Below, piece by piece: positions 1 through 49,551 of a stretch of DNA of 49,551 nt. Within the stretch, counting starts at the first letter, position 1. Each line of letters opens with the position of its first letter. Under the pieces are notes generated by a model that made no database searches, was not told the DNA's origin, and saw only the letters and a list, made by a program, of their open reading frames with translations. Position numbers and translations under genes: made by a program. The stretch comes from a virus, in the IMG/VR virus record IMGVR_UViG_3300044692_000144, positions 1 to 49,551 of that record; one strand, 5' to 3'.

Positions 1-34
1 ACGACCGATCCCGCGGCGGGATGCGCCGGCAACC

Positions 35-1091: not shown

Positions 1092-2396
1092 TCACCCATC
1101 ACCCACCGCTGCCTTTCTCGCCGCCGTGTCGGATCGCTGTAGGTAGGCGTCGAGGGCGCTGGCGGCCGTCGCCTCGCTGCCGGGGAAGAGGTGGCCGTAG
1201 CGGTCGAGCGTGATGGCGATCGACGAGTGGCCCATGACTTTGGAGAGCAGCTTCGGGTTGAAGCCCTCTCTCGACTGCGCCATCGCCTCGATCATCATCG
1301 ACGCGTAGGTGTGGCGGCAGTCGTGGAAGGTGAGGCGGCAGAGCAACGGCGGCGCCGTGGTACCCGCGGCGGCGATCGCCGCCAGCAGCTGCTCGGCGTC
1401 CTGGTCGTCGACGTCGACGCCGAGGTCCTCGGCGGCCGCGCGCAGCCGGCGCAGGTTCTCCGCCTCCCAGGCGCGATCGGCCCGCCGCTGCAGCGCGCTG
1501 ATGTCGAAAGCGACGTCGACGTCGCGGCCGAAGAGCAGCCCCGTGGTCGGCGCGCCCGCCATCCGGTGCTCGAGCAGGTGGTCACGCAGCACGCCCGGCA
1601 CCGGCACCGCACGCTCGCCGGCGTCGGACTTCGGGTCGACGCGCCGGCGCTCGCCGCGATCCCAGTTCCACTCGACCGCGATCCGGCCGGTGGCGAGGTC
1701 GACGGCCTCGGCGCCGAGCGCCTGGATCTCGCCGATCCGCAGCCCGGCATACATCGCCACGGCCCAGACGGCGCGGTCGCCGGCCGGCACCGCGGCGAGC
1801 AGTTCGGCGGCTTCCTCGGGCGGCGCGATCCGCAGACGCTTGCCGGTGTCGGCCGGCAGCTCGAGGTGGTCCATCGGGCTGGCGAGGACCTCTTCGAGCC
1901 GCAGGAGCCGGCGATAGAGGACGCGGAGCGGCATCAGAATGTTCCGCACCGTCGACGGCGCGAGGCCCTCGGCGACCAGGCGGTCGACCAGGCGCTGGAC
2001 GTCGGAGCCGCGGAGGTCCTGCGGGCGGGCCGAGCCGAAGGCGGGCACGATGTGGTTGGCGGCGTCGCGCGAGTACTCGCGGATCACGCCGGGCTTGTAG
2101 GCGCGGCCCTTGCGGTTGCGGACGGTGCCGGCGCGCATCGCGTCGAAGAGCGAGTCCAACTCGACGCGGATGGTCGAACGGGCGCCGGGCCGGAAGGTGC
2201 CCTTGTCGATCGACAGCTCCTGTTCGGCGCGCCAGGCGATCGCTTCCTGTTCGCTCGGGAACGTCTTCGTCGGCCGCTTGCCGGTGCGCGGGTCCTTCTT
2301 CGCCTGCGCCTGGAAGGTCGGGGTGCAGCTGCAGCGCGAGCCGCCCTTCGCCTTGCTGCAGGTGCGGGAATGGCGCGGCGTGATGCCCTCGGCCAT
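1092..2396 (-). CDS. int: Phage integrase, tyrosine recombinase
   Basis: A 434-residue integrase. The N-terminal region has the usual actinobacterial opening with paired Cys residues (RTCSKAKGGSRCSC), then a SAM-like core-binding domain at about 75-180 and the catalytic domain at 190-425. Catalytic residues visible are R220 (AGLRIGE), K256, H358 and R361 (HDCRH), H390 (MGHSS) and Y400. The ATG at 2396 is chosen for an AGGAG 8 nt upstream and the family-like N terminus. A GTG at 2444 overlapping the excisionase stop (GTGA) is the alternative. It sits beside the candidate attachment tRNA and the excisionase gene, as expected for an integration cassette. Confidence 0.95.
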   Translation of the reverse strand: MAEGITPRHSRTCSKAKGGSRCSCTPTFQAQAKKDPRTGKRPTKTFPSEQEAIAWRAEQELSIDKGTFRPGARSTIRVELDSLFDAMRAGTVRNRKGRAYKPGVIREYSRDAANHIVPAFGSARPQDLRGSDVQRLVDRLVAEGLAPSTVRNILMPLRVLYRRLLRLEEVLASPMDHLELPADTGKRLRIAPPEEAAELLAAVPAGDRAVWAVAMYAGLRIGEIQALGAEAVDLATGRIAVEWNWDRGERRRVDPKSDAGERAVPVPGVLRDHLLEHRMAGAPTTGLLFGRDVDVAFDISALQRRADRAWEAENLRRLRAAAEDLGVDVDDQDAEQLLAAIAAAGTTAPPLLCRLTFHDCRHTYASMMIEAMAQSREGFNPKLLSKVMGHSSIAITLDRYGHLFPGSEATAASALDAYLQRSDTAARKAAVGDG

Positions 2397-2440
2397 GTGC
2401 TCGTCTCCTCTCGTCGGGGTCTCCGACGGGGACATTGCCG

Positions 2441-2656
2441 TCACGCGGCGCCTCCGAGCTCCATCTGCGCCTCCCGCTCCGACCACTTTGCGAGCTCGGC
2501 GACCGGGACGAGGGTGAGGTTGCCGCTTTTGACGAGCCGCAGGTGCGGGCGGACGTAGCGGTTGAAGTGGTCGTCCGACATCCCGAGCGCGATCGCCGCC
2601 TCGGGGATCCGGAGCGTGACACGAGGGATCGGGCGGTCGAGGGTGGCGCTAGGCAT
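2441..2656 (-). CDS. xis: Excisionase-like / MerR-type helix-turn-helix protein
   Basis: A 71-residue protein with one short winged helix-turn-helix (RIPEAAIALGMSDDHFNRYVRP...VPVAELAKW). This is the layout of phage excisionases and MerR-like DNA-binding proteins. It ends just before the integrase and starts within the end of the preceding gene (ATG overlaps TAG). Excisionase is inferred from size, fold and place beside the integrase; a small regulator is the alternative. Confidence 0.7.
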   Translation of the reverse strand: MPSATLDRPIPRVTLRIPEAAIALGMSDDHFNRYVRPHLRLVKSGNLTLVPVAELAKWSEREAQMELGGAA

Positions 2657-43492: not shown

Positions 43493-45016
43493 CTAAAGCT
43501 GCTTCGTCCCCAGCCCGCCGCTGATCGTCTGGCCCCGATCGCGCTGCGCCTGCCGCTGCTGGGCGGGTGGGATGTCGGGCAGCGCCCGGGCGGCGTAGGA
43601 GAGCGTGTCCACCTGGTCGTCGTGCTCGCCGGCGGGGAAGGCGAGCAGCTCGGCCTCGTAGTCGTGCAGCCACTCGGCGCCGCGGCGGTGGTAGACCTTG
43701 CCGCCCTTGTAGAGCGCGGCCGCGACGCCGGCGCGGGTGACCTTGTCTTTGTCGGGGAAGACCGGCTCGGCCGGGAAGCCGCGGCGCAGCAGCGCCCGCA
43801 CCATCCCCGACTGGTAGCCGATCGACTCGATCTTGGCGACGGCGCCGGTGTGATGGTCGAGGAAGAAGTCGGGCTGGTCGGTGACCGGGATGTGGTCGCG
43901 GGTGACGCTGTTCAGCAGCAGGTCCTTGTCCGGGGTCACCCACCACTCGCTGAGCACGGTGTAGTCGCCCTGCTCTTTCTCCGACGCCGCCAGGTCGGCG
44001 GTCTGGAATTTCGCGATCCAGTCGAGGCCGTAGCTTTGCTTGGCGCCGCCGGGCCGCGTGAGGACGACCAGGCCGTTCTCGACCTCCCAGTAGTGGAAGT
44101 ACTTGCGGCCGAAGATGCCGCCCTCGTCGGGCGTGGGCTTGCCCTGGTACATCGCGCTGAACCAATACGGGCCGAGGACCTTGCGCGTGTGGAGCAGCCA
44201 TTCGGCCGAGTAGCGCTGCGGCCAGAGCGCTTCCCCGACCGGGCGGCCGAGCGGGTCGTCCTCCTCGGCGATCGCGGGCAGGCGGATCTCCGTGACGGGG
44301 TCGCCGCCTTCCTCGCTCGAGGCGAGCATCCGGCCGGCGATGTCGTCCTCGTGCCAGCGGGTCAGGAGCACGATGACCACGGCGCCGGGCTGCAGCCGCG
44401 TGCGCGCCGTCGAGAGCCACCAATCCCACTGCTTCTCCCGGATCACCTCCGACATCGCCTGCTCGGCGTTCTTGATCGGGTCGTCGATGATCAACAGGTC
44501 GGCGCCCATGCCGGTGATGGGGCCGCCGACGCCGGCGGTGATCATCCCGCCGCGATGGCCGCGCAGGCCCCAGCGCTTCGCCGAGGACGACCGCGGGTTG
44601 AGCTCGACGCCATAGAGGTCGCGGCCGTGCTCTTCGAGGATCGTCCGCGCCTTCAGGCCCCAGCTCGAGGCGAAGTCGCTCTCGTAGCTGCAGAGGATGA
44701 CGTGGCGGTCGGGGAAGGTGCCGACGAACCAGGCGGGGGTGTATTCGCTGATCTCGGTGGACTTGCCGTGGCGCGGGGGGACCTCGATCAGCAGGATCTC
44801 CGGGCGATCGTCGACCGGCTCCCCGGCGGCGGCGCGGCGCTGCCGTTCGTGGGCCCGCGCGACCGCGGCGACAATTTCGCGGTCGATCAGCCGGATGTGG
44901 TCCGGGTAGGCGTAGCGCTTCGCCGCGCCCTGATCGACCAGGCGTTCGTCGACCGCCAGCGCCAGGCCCGCGGGGCTAGCCCTCGCGAGCGTCGGCAACG
45001 GCAGCGACGAGACCAT
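43493..45016 (-). CDS. terL: Terminase large subunit
   Basis: 507 residues. Walker A is PPRHGKST at 80-87, Walker B LLIIDDP at 174-180. The C-terminal RNase H-like nuclease has GLDWIAKF and HDDQVDTLSYA near 475. It cuts and pumps DNA into the head. The start overlaps the small subunit gene by 41 nt. Confidence 0.95.
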   Translation of the reverse strand: MVSSLPLPTLARASPAGLALAVDERLVDQGAAKRYAYPDHIRLIDREIVAAVARAHERQRRAAAGEPVDDRPEILLIEVPPRHGKSTEISEYTPAWFVGTFPDRHVILCSYESDFASSWGLKARTILEEHGRDLYGVELNPRSSSAKRWGLRGHRGGMITAGVGGPITGMGADLLIIDDPIKNAEQAMSEVIREKQWDWWLSTARTRLQPGAVVIVLLTRWHEDDIAGRMLASSEEGGDPVTEIRLPAIAEEDDPLGRPVGEALWPQRYSAEWLLHTRKVLGPYWFSAMYQGKPTPDEGGIFGRKYFHYWEVENGLVVLTRPGGAKQSYGLDWIAKFQTADLAASEKEQGDYTVLSEWWVTPDKDLLLNSVTRDHIPVTDQPDFFLDHHTGAVAKIESIGYQSGMVRALLRRGFPAEPVFPDKDKVTRAGVAAALYKGGKVYHRRGAEWLHDYEAELLAFPAGEHDDQVDTLSYAARALPDIPPAQQRQAQRDRGQTISGGLGTKQL

Positions 45017-45494
45017 GCAGCGCCTCCCTCACCGCCGGGTCGGAGAAGTCGAGCTCGGTCTTCACGGGTCCACCGTCGTCGCCCGTCAGCTCGAGCGGCT
45101 GCCTGGGCTTGCCATACACCAGCTGCATGGCGAGCTTGGTGGCTTTCATCCCGAGCTCGGGATCTGCGACGTAGATGATTTTGTGCTCGCCGCGGCTGGC
45201 GCTCCAGGTCTGCATCGGCTTCGACGCGCCGAGCGCTGCCTCGAGCGGCGCCAGCCAGCGGTCGATGTCGTTCTCGATGCGCTCGCGCAGGACCTCGTGG
45301 GGCCGCGGCAGCCGCGGGCGGCCGCCGAGCTTGCCAGCGGCCCCCGCCTGCTCCGGCGATCCAAACCGGGTCGAATCGGGTGAAAGCGGATGGGCCGCAC
45401 AGCGCTTGGTGCCCTTCAGCGGGGCAGCCTTACAGCGCTTGCCGGTGGTGACCGACGTGCCGGTGCAGCGGGGTTTGGCCTTCCTCTTCGCCAT
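44976..45494 (-). CDS. terS: Terminase small subunit-like protein
   Basis: 172 residues. The N terminus carries a Cys3-His zinc pattern (RCTGTSVTTGKRC...RCAAHP), then basic and helical parts. Place directly upstream of the large subunit supports the role in recognising the packaging site. It starts right after site S12. Confidence 0.75.
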   Translation of the reverse strand: MAKRKAKPRCTGTSVTTGKRCKAAPLKGTKRCAAHPLSPDSTRFGSPEQAGAAGKLGGRPRLPRPHEVLRERIENDIDRWLAPLEAALGASKPMQTWSASRGEHKIIYVADPELGMKATKLAMQLVYGKPRQPLELTGDDGGPVKTELDFSDPAVREALHGLVAAVADAREG

Positions 45495-46358: not shown

Positions 46359-46937
46359 TCAGCCGCGGGAACGGATCTTGCGCGCCAGGTCGGCCTCGAA
46401 GATGTGGGTGTAGATCACCGTCGTGCGGATGTCGGAGTGGCGGAGCAGCTGTTGGACCTCGCGGACGTTGAAGCCTTCGCGCAGCAGCTCGGTCGCATAG
46501 GTGTGGCGGAGCATGTGCGGGTTGACATCGCGGTCGATTCCGGCGCGGCGGGCGTAGCGGCGCATCATCGCCCAGACGTATTTCCGCGACACCGGGCCGC
46601 CGGCGAGCGTGGTGAAGAGGTGCGGTTTGCGACCGATGCCGAGGCCTCGGCGCACCGCGATCCACGCGCGCAGCAGCTCGACCGCCTGGTCGTCGAGATA
46701 GGCGTAGGCCTCCTTGCCGCCCTTCGCCACCTCGGGCCGAAGGTGGACCTGGCCGTCGTCGAGGTGGGCGTCGCGCAGACCGACGCCGCAGGCCTCGCTG
46801 ACACGCAGACCCGAGCGGTGCATCAGGGTCAGGATTGCGAGGTTCCGAAGGCCGGTCGGCGCCGAGCGATTCGGCACCGCGAAGAGCGCCGCGATCTCGT
46901 CAGCGGAGAGGATCTTCGGCAGTTTGCGCGGCGCCAT
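46359..46937 (-). CDS. Compact tyrosine recombinase
   Basis: 192 residues, only the catalytic domain: R45 (SGLRVSE), K72, H141 and R144 (HMLRH), H167 and Y176 (TTVIYTH). No N-terminal core-binding domain. It is the second recombinase in this prophage. It starts after site S14 and lies next to a lox-like inverted repeat. It may act as an invertase, resolvase or a second integration factor. Confidence 0.85.
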   Translation of the reverse strand: MAPRKLPKILSADEIAALFAVPNRSAPTGLRNLAILTLMHRSGLRVSEACGVGLRDAHLDDGQVHLRPEVAKGGKEAYAYLDDQAVELLRAWIAVRRGLGIGRKPHLFTTLAGGPVSRKYVWAMMRRYARRAGIDRDVNPHMLRHTYATELLREGFNVREVQQLLRHSDIRTTVIYTHIFEADLARKIRSRG

Positions 46938-46953
46938 ATAGGCGACTATCGGC
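46938..46953 (-). promoter_or_regulatory. Start-associated site S14 (recombinase)
   Basis: GCCGATAGTCGCCTAT is followed at once by ATG at 46937. Confidence 0.6.
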
Positions 46954-46981: not shown

Positions 46982-47062
46982 GCATAGAGGGGACATTGCA
47001 TACGGAATGTCCCCTGGATCAGGGCACCGCGGCGGCCAGCGCGTGCGATGTCCCCTCTATGC
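46982..47062. repeat. Lox-like inverted repeats beside the recombinase
   Basis: AGGGGACATT (46988-46997) and AATGTCCCCT (47006-47015) are perfect 10-bp arms around an 8-bp asymmetric spacer GCATACGG. A further ATGTCCCCTCTATGC (47048-47062) is an exact inverted copy of GCATAGAGGGGACAT (46982-46996). Arm-spacer-arm spacing of this kind is what tyrosine recombinases use. Confidence 0.7.
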
Positions 47063-47067
47063 AGTCG

Positions 47068-47775
47068 CTATGACCAGTAGGTGTAGAGCACCGGTCGCAG
47101 CTGCAGCCACGCCTTGTCGTCGGTGAACAAGTCGAGAAACGTCGCGACGTTTTTGATGTCCCGTGGCACCACCGGGGCGACGTTCTCCCAGGCATCTGCG
47201 CTGCTCTCGAACCCGGCATATTGCGCCAGCACGTCGAGTTCGCTCTCGGCCAATTTCTTCTCCGCATTGGTCCCGCGGATCCAATTGAAGATTTTGTCGT
47301 CGACTCCCTCGCCGGTCCGCTTGTCCATGTAGCCGATGAATGGATAGATGCCGTGGCGAAGCGTCTCGATGTGGTTTGCCTGCGGCTCCTCGGCTGGCTT
47401 CCGTAAGTACGTCTCCTCGATGTAGTCGATCGCATCATCGAAGCGTGACCACCGCCGCTGATAGGTCGGCGGGCAGATGACGAGGACGTTCGGCATGCCG
47501 AACTCGCCCTGGTGGACGATCGCGGTGTCGAGGTCGAAGCGGGGGTCGCCCGGTTCGGGTTCACGGAGGAATGAGAGTTCAAGGTCGATCTCGATGTCGC
47601 CGGACTCGCGTTGAGCTTCAAGCCAGGTCCGGTATTCATCGATCGACGGGGCCGTGTAGGTGAGGCCTGGCGACTTCGAGTTGACCCGCGGGTCGTCGAT
47701 CTCCCACTCGCGATCGGCACTCGTTGCGATGTCGGTCAACCCGTAGCCGAGCAGCTTGTGGACGCGGATCCCCAT
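47068..47775 (-). CDS. Hypothetical protein
   Basis: 235 residues (MGIRVHKLLGYGLTDIATS). Mixed alpha/beta with an acidic start, no recognised family. It is the last gene of the accessory operon before the recombination site. Confidence 0.6.
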   Translation of the reverse strand: MGIRVHKLLGYGLTDIATSADREWEIDDPRVNSKSPGLTYTAPSIDEYRTWLEAQRESGDIEIDLELSFLREPEPGDPRFDLDTAIVHQGEFGMPNVLVICPPTYQRRWSRFDDAIDYIEETYLRKPAEEPQANHIETLRHGIYPFIGYMDKRTGEGVDDKIFNWIRGTNAEKKLAESELDVLAQYAGFESSADAWENVAPVVPRDIKNVATFLDLFTDDKAWLQLRPVLYTYWS

Positions 47776-47776
47776 G

Positions 47777-47995
47777 TCAGATGACGCTCGGCGCCGGGGT
47801 CGACGCCTGCTCGAGGAACGCATCGACGTGCGCCTTCATCCTCGGGTCATCGCTGCGCGCATCGCGGATCACGGCGGCGAGGTTTGCTTCGGCGCTGAAC
47901 CCGCCGAGCTGCTTGACCAGCCGGCAGAAGGCGTAGGGGTGGTAGCCGCCTTGGCCAGCTCCGGGTTGGGTGTGTCCGCAGGTGGTGCACATCAT
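47777..47995 (-). CDS. Small zinc-finger-like protein
   Basis: 72 residues with CTTCGH and a further Cys (FCRL). ATGA overlap at the start. A possible zinc-binding accessory. Confidence 0.5.
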   Translation of the reverse strand: MMCTTCGHTQPGAGQGGYHPYAFCRLVKQLGGFSAEANLAAVIRDARSDDPRMKAHVDAFLEQASTPAPSVI

Positions 47996-48177
47996 GTCCT
48001 CCTCTTCTTGCGCCCGCGGGTCGGTACCCGCAGGCTGGTGATGTGGAAGTGGCGGCAGTGGCGGCAGAAGTAGACGCGGAATCGGTTGTGCACCGTCTTC
48101 GCCCCCTGCTTCGCCGCGCGCTTCGATTCGAAGCAGCGCTTGCCGGTCTTCGGGCAGATCGGGCGCTCGGTCCTCAC
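47992..48177 (-). CDS. Small zinc-ribbon protein
   Basis: 61 residues with C-P-K...C near 8-15 and CRHC near 38-41, and a very basic tail (RGRKKRRT). GTG start immediately after the previous stop. Confidence 0.6.
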   Translation of the reverse strand: MRTERPICPKTGKRCFESKRAAKQGAKTVHNRFRVYFCRHCRHFHITSLRVPTRGRKKRRT

Positions 48178-48480
48178 CTAGGCCACCGCCTTGAACTTCG
48201 GCTCGCCGCGGACCGTGTACGTCCAGTGCAGGTGACAGCCGCGGCCGCGGCCCGACCGGACGCAGGTGAACGCCGGGCCGGACTCGCGGTGGTAGATGTG
48301 CAGGACCTCGCCGATCAGCGGCATGTCGCCGGGCTCGTCGAGCACCGCGGAGACACCGTCGGCCGAGGACACCGCGCGCAGATGGTCGGGCGGCTCGGCG
48401 AAGGCGGTGTCGTAGAAGCCCTCGGCGGGGCCGTCGACCAGGTGGACGGTGACGCCGGCGAAGGTGCGGACGGCGCTCAC
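48178..48480 (-). CDS. Hypothetical protein
   Basis: 100 residues; GTG start overlapping the ASCH stop. Beta-rich (TFAGVTVHLVDGPAEGFYDT; LHWTYTVRGEPKF). Unknown. Confidence 0.55.
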   Translation of the reverse strand: MSAVRTFAGVTVHLVDGPAEGFYDTAFAEPPDHLRAVSSADGVSAVLDEPGDMPLIGEVLHIYHRESGPAFTCVRSGRGRGCHLHWTYTVRGEPKFKAVA

Positions 48481-48968
48481 CCGCGGACCCCCGCTAGCGG
48501 GATCTCGCCTTCGGTCTCCCAGAGGCCCTGCTTCCCGCGCGCCGGCACCGGCGGCAGTACCGGTTCGCGACCGCACATCACCCAGGCGAAGCGGCCCGGC
48601 GAGTAGTCGCCGAACGCTCGCTCATGGAGACAGGGGTGGATGCCGGTGATCCGCATCACTTCCGTGCTGGCCCTGCACGCCGCGATCTCATCGGTCGGGT
48701 AGCAGCCGACCAGCTCCATCACGGCGACGATCGCGCCGCGAGGTAGGTCATCGATGTCCGGATATCCAGCGTCGGTGAGCTTCGCCCGGAACGGCTCCTG
48801 CGCGCAAAGCGCGCGCAACCCCGCCTCGCCGCCGACCGCGCCGAGGTTCTTCCCCGCATGGATCGCGAGCGGCCCGCGGTACGGCGTCGACCAGCTGCGC
48901 GTCTCGAAGCGCTTGGCGCCGATCGCGACCAGCGTCGCCCAGGGCTGGGTGAGGGTGAGGGCCTTCAC
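48477..48968 (-). CDS. ASCH-domain protein
   Basis: 163 residues. LTLTQPWATLVAIGAKRFETRSW at the start is the ASCH pattern, a PUA-like fold linked to RNA binding. AIVAVMELVGCYP continues the fold. Common in phages; the RNA target is unknown. Confidence 0.8.
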   Translation of the reverse strand: MKALTLTQPWATLVAIGAKRFETRSWSTPYRGPLAIHAGKNLGAVGGEAGLRALCAQEPFRAKLTDAGYPDIDDLPRGAIVAVMELVGCYPTDEIAACRASTEVMRITGIHPCLHERAFGDYSPGRFAWVMCGREPVLPPVPARGKQGLWETEGEIPLAGVRG

Positions 48969-49177
48969 CGCCGCGACTCCTGCCTGTCCGCCTCGGGCGT
49001 GCCGCCGCCATGCTGGACGGCGCCCGCGAGACGCGCCGCGGCGATGCCGACGAACTCCTGCATGAACTCGCCGATTCGCCGGGCGGTCGAGTCGTAGTCA
49101 CCGGGGGCATCCCAAGCGTCATAGTCGCAGAGGCGATCCATCGCGCCGTGTGCGATTTCCTGCGGCGTCTGGCTCAT
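48965..49177 (-). CDS. Hypothetical small protein
   Basis: 70 residues, helical with AHGAMDRLCDYDAWDAPGDYD. Overlaps the ASCH start by ATGA. Unknown. Confidence 0.5.
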   Translation of the reverse strand: MSQTPQEIAHGAMDRLCDYDAWDAPGDYDSTARRIGEFMQEFVGIAAARLAGAVQHGGGTPEADRQESRR

Positions 49178-49551
49178 ATCGCCATCGCCTTCCGCACGTC
49201 GTCGTCGAGGTCCTCACCGGCCACCGCGGCGTAGCGCTCGAGGACCTCGCGGACGTCGTCAGCGAATGAGTGCTGGTGGTTCAGCTTGAACGCGAGCTGG
49301 TGCGCCAGGTCGTCGAGCAGCTGCCGGTCGACCGTGGCGGCCGCGGGCTCCGCCGGCGCCTCGCCGGTGATGCACTCGATCGCCGCCCGTGCCAGCAGCA
49401 GGTAGCGCCGCTGCGTCCCGGCGCCCAGTTCGTCGAGGCACTCGGGCAGCTTGTCGAGCGCCGGATGATCGCCCTTGCCGCCCTGATACATCGCTTCGGC
49501 GACCTCGACGACGGACGGGGTGCGGCGTAGCTCGGCGGTGGCGGCGGTCAC
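49174..49551 (-). CDS. Hypothetical protein, possibly truncated by window edge
   Basis: 125 residues to a GTG at the last bases of the window, so the true start may lie outside. Helical (PSVVEVAEAMYQGGKGDHPALDKL; LLDDLAHQLAFKLNHQHSF). Unknown. Confidence 0.5.
   Translation of the reverse strand: MTAATAELRRTPSVVEVAEAMYQGGKGDHPALDKLPECLDELGAGTQRRYLLLARAAIECITGEAPAEPAAATVDRQLLDDLAHQLAFKLNHQHSFADDVREVLERYAAVAGEDLDDDVRKAMAI

Follow-up and report, generated by a model that had tools for sequence, protein, structure and literature searches.

The Cre/loxP system of phage P1 has inverted arms around an asymmetric 8-bp spacer, a recombinase gene close by and one site per genome, near packaging functions; loxP lies near pac and is included in the terminal redundancy of some packaged molecules, which can then cyclise. 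The loxP site has no accessory arms, and Cre carries a core-binding domain. FimB/FimE-type invertases are catalytic domains of about 200 amino acids without a core-binding domain, and they use two inverted sites around a promoter. In general, simple recombinases usually have a core-binding domain (PMC8138268). The irs site of the Tn3-family transposon Tn4430 comprises four subsites for one protein, TnpI, upstream of tnpI, with accessory arms that are direct repeats (DR1 and DR2), and in Tn5401 TnpI modulates expression from irs (PMC7157771). There are precedents for a surplus phage recombinase with an inverted-repeat site close to structural genes: Gp50 of Tyrovirus is an additional tyrosine recombinase encoded among structural genes, with a nearby site, downstream of its gene, in which 6 bp separate two 11-bp repeats; the site varies little among the phages of one host group, and no accessory arms are reported for it (PMC9703825). 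MrpR of SPbeta has a tyrosine-recombinase fold and a core-binding domain, keeps few of its catalytic residues and binds repeated elements located throughout the prophage (PMC10516654).

Our analysis concerns a 49,551-nt stretch of viral DNA (IMG/VR record IMGVR_UViG_3300044692_000144; hereafter, the window), in which four 15-bp arms, designated A to D, precede or overlap the start of the gene for a compact tyrosine recombinase (Table 1). B and C face each other across an asymmetric 8-bp spacer, forming a core, and A and D stand one on each side of it. Among the described systems, irs of Tn4430/Tn5401 is nearest in layout and Cre-lox of P1 in proposed use. As in irs, the recombinase gene lies directly downstream of the site, and an inverted core pair plus two accessory arms make up four subsites, presumably for one protein and with likely self-regulation; this likeness is one of layout. 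The two differ in that A and D are mutually inverted across the core rather than direct repeats, in that the Tn3 transposase TnpA (PF01526) is absent from the 12 phage records, and in that the phage recombinase lacks an N-terminal domain. With Cre/loxP the phage site shares inverted arms, spacer, nearby recombinase gene, single copy and packaging neighbourhood, but it has accessory arms, and its protein is XerD-like and consists of the catalytic domain only. By these tests it is a member of neither system, but it probably works like them. Gp50 is likewise an extra phage tyrosine recombinase with a close inverted-repeat site; FimB/FimE enzymes are similarly compact, but the phage protein scores below the cut-off of that family and its genome holds a single core; and MrpR likewise has a tyrosine-recombinase fold that acts on phage DNA, whereas the phage enzyme described here retains all its catalytic residues.

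The site and its recombinase in the window

A preliminary description of this DNA had proposed a lox-like site, and the elements on which it rested are present. The asymmetric 8-bp spacer GCATACGG (46998-47005) has a perfect 10-bp arm on each side, AGGGGACATT (46988-46997) and AATGTCCCCT (47006-47015), and the 15-bp sequence GCATAGAGGGGACAT (46982-46996) recurs in inverted form at 47048-47062, about 51 bp distant. The 45-bp gap to a catalytic-domain-only recombinase also holds, with the start codon placed from relatives, as does the full integrase near the left end. What changes is the place of the third arm: it corresponds to arm A, one of two accessory arms, the other of which, arm D, was absent from that description. 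At the window locus A matches the core arms at 14/15 positions and D at 11/15, each the top of 76 offsets.

Table 1. Positions of the site, its recombinase and other genes in the window.
Feature	Position	Strand	Sequence	Remarks
Arm A	47047..47061	(-)	CATAGAGGGGACATC	Accessory; orientation as B; starts 41 bp before B
Arm B	47006..47020	(-)	GATCCAGGGGACATT	Left core arm, read along the recombinase gene; 12/15 complementary to C
Core spacer	46998..47005	(-)	CCGTATGC	8 bp, asymmetric; given on the recombinase strand; strand-exchange region predicted from sequence
Arm C	46983..46997	(-)	AATGTCCCCTCTATG	Right core arm; inverted relative to B
Arm D	46935..46949	(-)	ATAGTCGCCTATATG	Accessory; orientation as C; starts 48 bp after C; overlaps the start codon
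Compact tyrosine recombinase	46359..46937	(-)		192 aa, catalytic domain only; start ATG at 46937; longest ORF reaches 46985
Gene in small terminase subunit position	44976..45494	(-)		Directly upstream of terL; assignment inferred from position only
Terminase large subunit (TerL)	43493..45016	(-)		PF03237 and PF17289; 75-77% identical in L002 and L003; downstream of the recombinase, same strand
Second, full-length tyrosine integrase	1092..2486	(-)		464 aa; PF00589, E 2.9e-12; PHROG integrase

Taken alone, the core palindrome of the window is at chance level and not significant: 1.2 perfect palindromes of the form 10-(6..10)-10 are expected in a window of such composition. Perfect inverted pairs of 15 bp no more than 120 bp apart are rarer, with 0.09 expected. 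The significance of the site comes from its relatives, which conserve the arm spacing and the matching of arms within each locus, and not from the window by itself.

The search for other copies of the arms that the preliminary description had proposed returned none. The exact core pattern has no further copy in the viral contigs; in a scan of the window for a second core of the same geometry the site itself scores 37 and the next matches, in GC-rich coding DNA, score 30; and a search of eleven contigs, those of the window and of ten relatives, revealed no further arm cluster. That description would have read a lone copy as pointing to an operator or terminator. This does not follow, because cyclisation and multimer-resolution sites occur once per genome and because arm D is spaced from the core.

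PF00589 is the only domain of the recombinase (E 1.2e-39 for the 208-aa ORF), and the start at the ATG at 46937 is supported by relatives, whose N-terminus is conserved from there. The full R-K-H-R-H set and nucleophile of tyrosine recombinases are present (R45, K72, H141, R144, H167 and Y176) and invariant in eight sequences. The AlphaFold model has a mean pLDDT of 92; its best PDB match is XerA, and the closest solved folds are those of XerA, IntI4 and XerH. The protein aligns to the catalytic part of XerD alone, with the site occupying the region upstream of the gene, and the N-terminal core-binding domain of Xer-like proteins is absent. Scores against NCBIfam models fall far under the cut-offs of the XerC, XerD, XerA, integron and Fim-type families (170 bits against 330 for XerD, 152 against 220 for XerA).

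Arm geometry in related phages

Searching viral contigs with the recombinase protein and its alignments yielded twelve related phage contigs, from several samples, that carry close relatives; two remote homologues, L011 and L026, are additional to the twelve. The relatives share between about 48% and about 77% of their residues with the window protein. L008 and L009 are identical across the upstream stretch and were counted once, and L010 ends at a contig edge; the comparison covers 11 loci, namely the window and ten others whose upstream region is complete.

All 11 loci have a spaced palindrome (about 15-8-15) in the stretch upstream of the recombinase. With the register of the B-C core placed by hand, matches to the core arm were scored at each offset on both sides. 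Across the 11 loci, the score for an additional arm is highest exactly 41 bp before B (z 6.0, runner-up 1.9) and exactly 48 bp after C (z 5.2, runner-up 1.7). The B-C gap was assigned as 8 bp in 9/11 loci and as 10 bp in L020 and L023. The same 41/8/48 spacing holds in L056, which was obtained after the geometry had been fixed.

Arms mostly start with ATAG or ATG and finish with CATT or similar, and their middle letters differ. These letters vary between phages and agree within each phage, most clearly for B-C (permutation P 5e-5) and A-C (P 3.5e-4), followed by C-D (P 0.006), A-B (P 0.009) and B-D (P 0.013), with no significant match for A-D among the 11 loci; the loci are related by descent and not phylogenetically independent, and these P values are guides only. 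Individual loci depart from the pattern: the core is poor in L006 (6/15), arm D lies at +60 in L004 and is weak at +48 in L020, and in L019 and L056 the A arm is dissimilar to their own core arms. In L003 the core pairs poorly (8/15), whereas the A-C pairing is nearly perfect. The remote, AT-rich relative L011 has coding sequence immediately upstream of its recombinase and no visible arms.

The position of arm D relative to the gene varies. Its end ranges from 23 bp before the start codon to 26 bp inside the gene, covering the start codon in the window, L002, L003 and L007 and lying within the gene in L008, whereas its distance from the core is 48 bp in most loci. Such spacing, set by the core rather than by the start codon, fits a recombination complex and would not be expected for a promoter operator. 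The recombinase is the sole gene common to all 11 loci of the gene-content comparison, so it is the recombinase that the arms track. Since arm letters vary along with the recombinase in phages that have no other common neighbour gene, the recombinase itself is the probable binder.

The core spacer CGGTGYGA is common to L002, L003, L019 and L056 despite their differing arms, and the window, which is nearest to L002 and L003, has CCGTATGC instead. The common spacer may hint at a common partner site. The pattern CATTCGGTGYGAAVTG has 50 matches in the viral contigs, about the chance expectation for a collection of this size; two of them, L061 and L073, have palindromic flanks without a matching A or D arm, and all matches with the full geometry are among the loci known already.

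Genome context and competing explanations

In all phages with an identified TerL (G000, G001, G002, G003, G005, G006/G007, G008, G010 and G011), its gene lies on the strand of the recombinase and about 0.6-4.9 kb downstream, an arrangement that spans several unrelated phage backbones; no TerL was identified in G004, G012 or G013. The gene directly upstream of terL in the window has no PHROG match, and its homologues sit at the equivalent place in L002 and L003. In G005, a second, weaker terminase-large-subunit match lies upstream of the recombinase (L007, 292-2085), besides the downstream match to the TerL ATPase.

Synteny of the window (G000) with its two nearest relatives, G001 and G002, extends to the recombinase and ends there. 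Upstream of arm A, the gene content of the window (47068-49551) is unrelated to that of L002 and L003, though the phages are otherwise syntenic; these unrelated genes beyond arm A indicate that the site borders the conserved backbone. Three contigs end in the site or gene or within about 200 bp upstream: L051 (G008) at 1-13, L049 (G003) at its right end and L026, a remote homologue, at position 1. This is more than chance would give, and assembly forks arising from recombination there are a possible cause. A further contig end, in L029 (7047-7500, about 47.0-47.5 kb in G001), consists of a long tandem array of GCGGTGGACGGC-like units.

Larger, integrase-type tyrosine recombinases are present in G002, G005, G007 and G010 as well as in G000, which makes the small enzyme an extra recombinase in these phages. 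Beside the large integrase of the window lie two complete tRNA-Ser genes (464-719; GGA and CGA anticodons) in opposite orientations. Near the left end of the record (35-83), about 18 bp are repeated perfectly in inverted form around a short loop (TTGATGGGCCGAAAACC ... GGTTTTCGGCCCATCAA); this is perhaps a terminator or a piece of the large integrase's attachment region. In G012 (L043-L046), a record of 71 kb whose ends carry a 123-bp direct repeat, the compact enzyme is the only tyrosine recombinase, and no serine integrase was found in the records searched, G012 included. The partition genes ParA (AAA_31) and ParB_N are absent from every record; a plasmid prophage is thus not indicated.

That the element is the recombination site of the small recombinase is well supported by the sequence and, in our judgement, very probable. 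The conserved spacing, the match of arms within each phage, the complete catalytic residues and the presence of a second, full integrase in the window's phage support this part of the original lox-like proposal. How the site is used is less certain. The main rival reading, which we consider unlikely, is that it is an attP through which the small recombinase integrates the phage at a host site with an identical core, the large integrase being a second or alternative enzyme. A recombinase gene beside its site is the usual int-attP layout, and the status of the compact enzyme in G012, the spacer common to four phages and the start of the G008 contig inside arm C would all agree with integration. 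However, most of the longer records have a further integrase-type enzyme, and both arms and spacer differ strongly between phages. Since nearly every locus has arms A and D, none resembles an attL or attR half. Searches of bacterial genome contigs, made with few peptide patterns, found no close relative, only a single distant recombinase and a single match to a short fragment.

It is less probable still that the four arms are solely an operator set through which the recombinase represses its own gene, in the manner of MrpR of SPbeta. MrpR does provide a precedent for a repressor of recombinase fold (PMC10516654), TnpI modulates expression from irs (PMC7157771), and D lies over the start codon in four of the loci. 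Against this, the catalytic residues are complete, whereas MrpR has lost most of them (PMC10516654); D is spaced relative to the core, whatever the position of the start codon; an operator would require neither a spaced core nor arms placed at set distances on either side of it; and scattered operators were not found elsewhere in the eleven contigs.

The abrupt change of gene content at the site and the spacer common to some phages could also reflect the exchange of modules between phages, or gene capture at an integron-like or cassette boundary. We regard this as improbable: no second site or array was found in the genomes scanned, and mosaic boundaries beside packaging genes are common without site-specific recombination. 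An invertible switch, raised in the preliminary description, or excision between two sites in one genome would suit a compact enzyme that scores to the FimB/FimE-type invertase models, if under their cut-offs; it is largely refuted by the single core in the record, in which A and C form an inverted pair 51 bp apart and A has no partner arm at 8 bp, and by the lack of a second site in the ten relatives' contigs. A chance palindrome, expected about once in such a window, or a transcription terminator is refuted by the comparative data, namely a conserved geometry with arms matched within loci; scans for terminators and sigma-70 promoters found nothing, including no T-run terminator, and the poor core pairing of L003 beside its nearly perfect A-C pairing is unlike a hairpin under selection.

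A proposed role in handling phage genome copies

In the reading that we prefer, an XerD-like small tyrosine recombinase would recognise a cognate site directly upstream of its own gene. B and C around the 8-bp spacer would form the core at which strands are exchanged, and the same protein, bound to A and D, would assemble an accessory complex governing synapsis, in the manner of TnpI on irs of Tn4430/Tn5401. Because each phage genome has one site, recombination would take place between genome copies or between repeated ends of one packaged molecule. We give even odds to the proposal that the site acts between copies of the phage genome. The outcome would be the cyclisation of entering DNA or the resolution of multimers, as with Cre-lox in P1, and the position of the site just upstream of the terminase genes fits this analogy. 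The bound recombinase probably also limits its own expression via D, which overlaps or adjoins the start codon in most members. As a whole, a cognate site with two accessory arms that cyclises or resolves genomes and regulates its own recombinase has, in our estimate, a probability of roughly 0.5. The spacer CGGTGYGA common to four phages counts against it, as pure self-recombination would not need a spacer common to phages with different arms.

More tentatively, these phages may share a mobile lineage of catalytic-domain-only recombinases that move between unrelated phages together with a four-arm, 41-8-48 site upstream of packaging genes, and that cyclise or resolve genomes with protein-bound arms on both sides of the core. 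If true, this would be a minimal site-specific recombination system in which one 192-residue protein works without the usual DNA-clamping domain, and in which the arms diverged between phages while their spacing stayed. The eleven protein-site pairs would then offer a ready-made series in which to study how an isolated catalytic domain recognises its arms, and possibly a set of orthogonal recombinases. The system would also give a testable role to the unexplained second recombinase of temperate phages.
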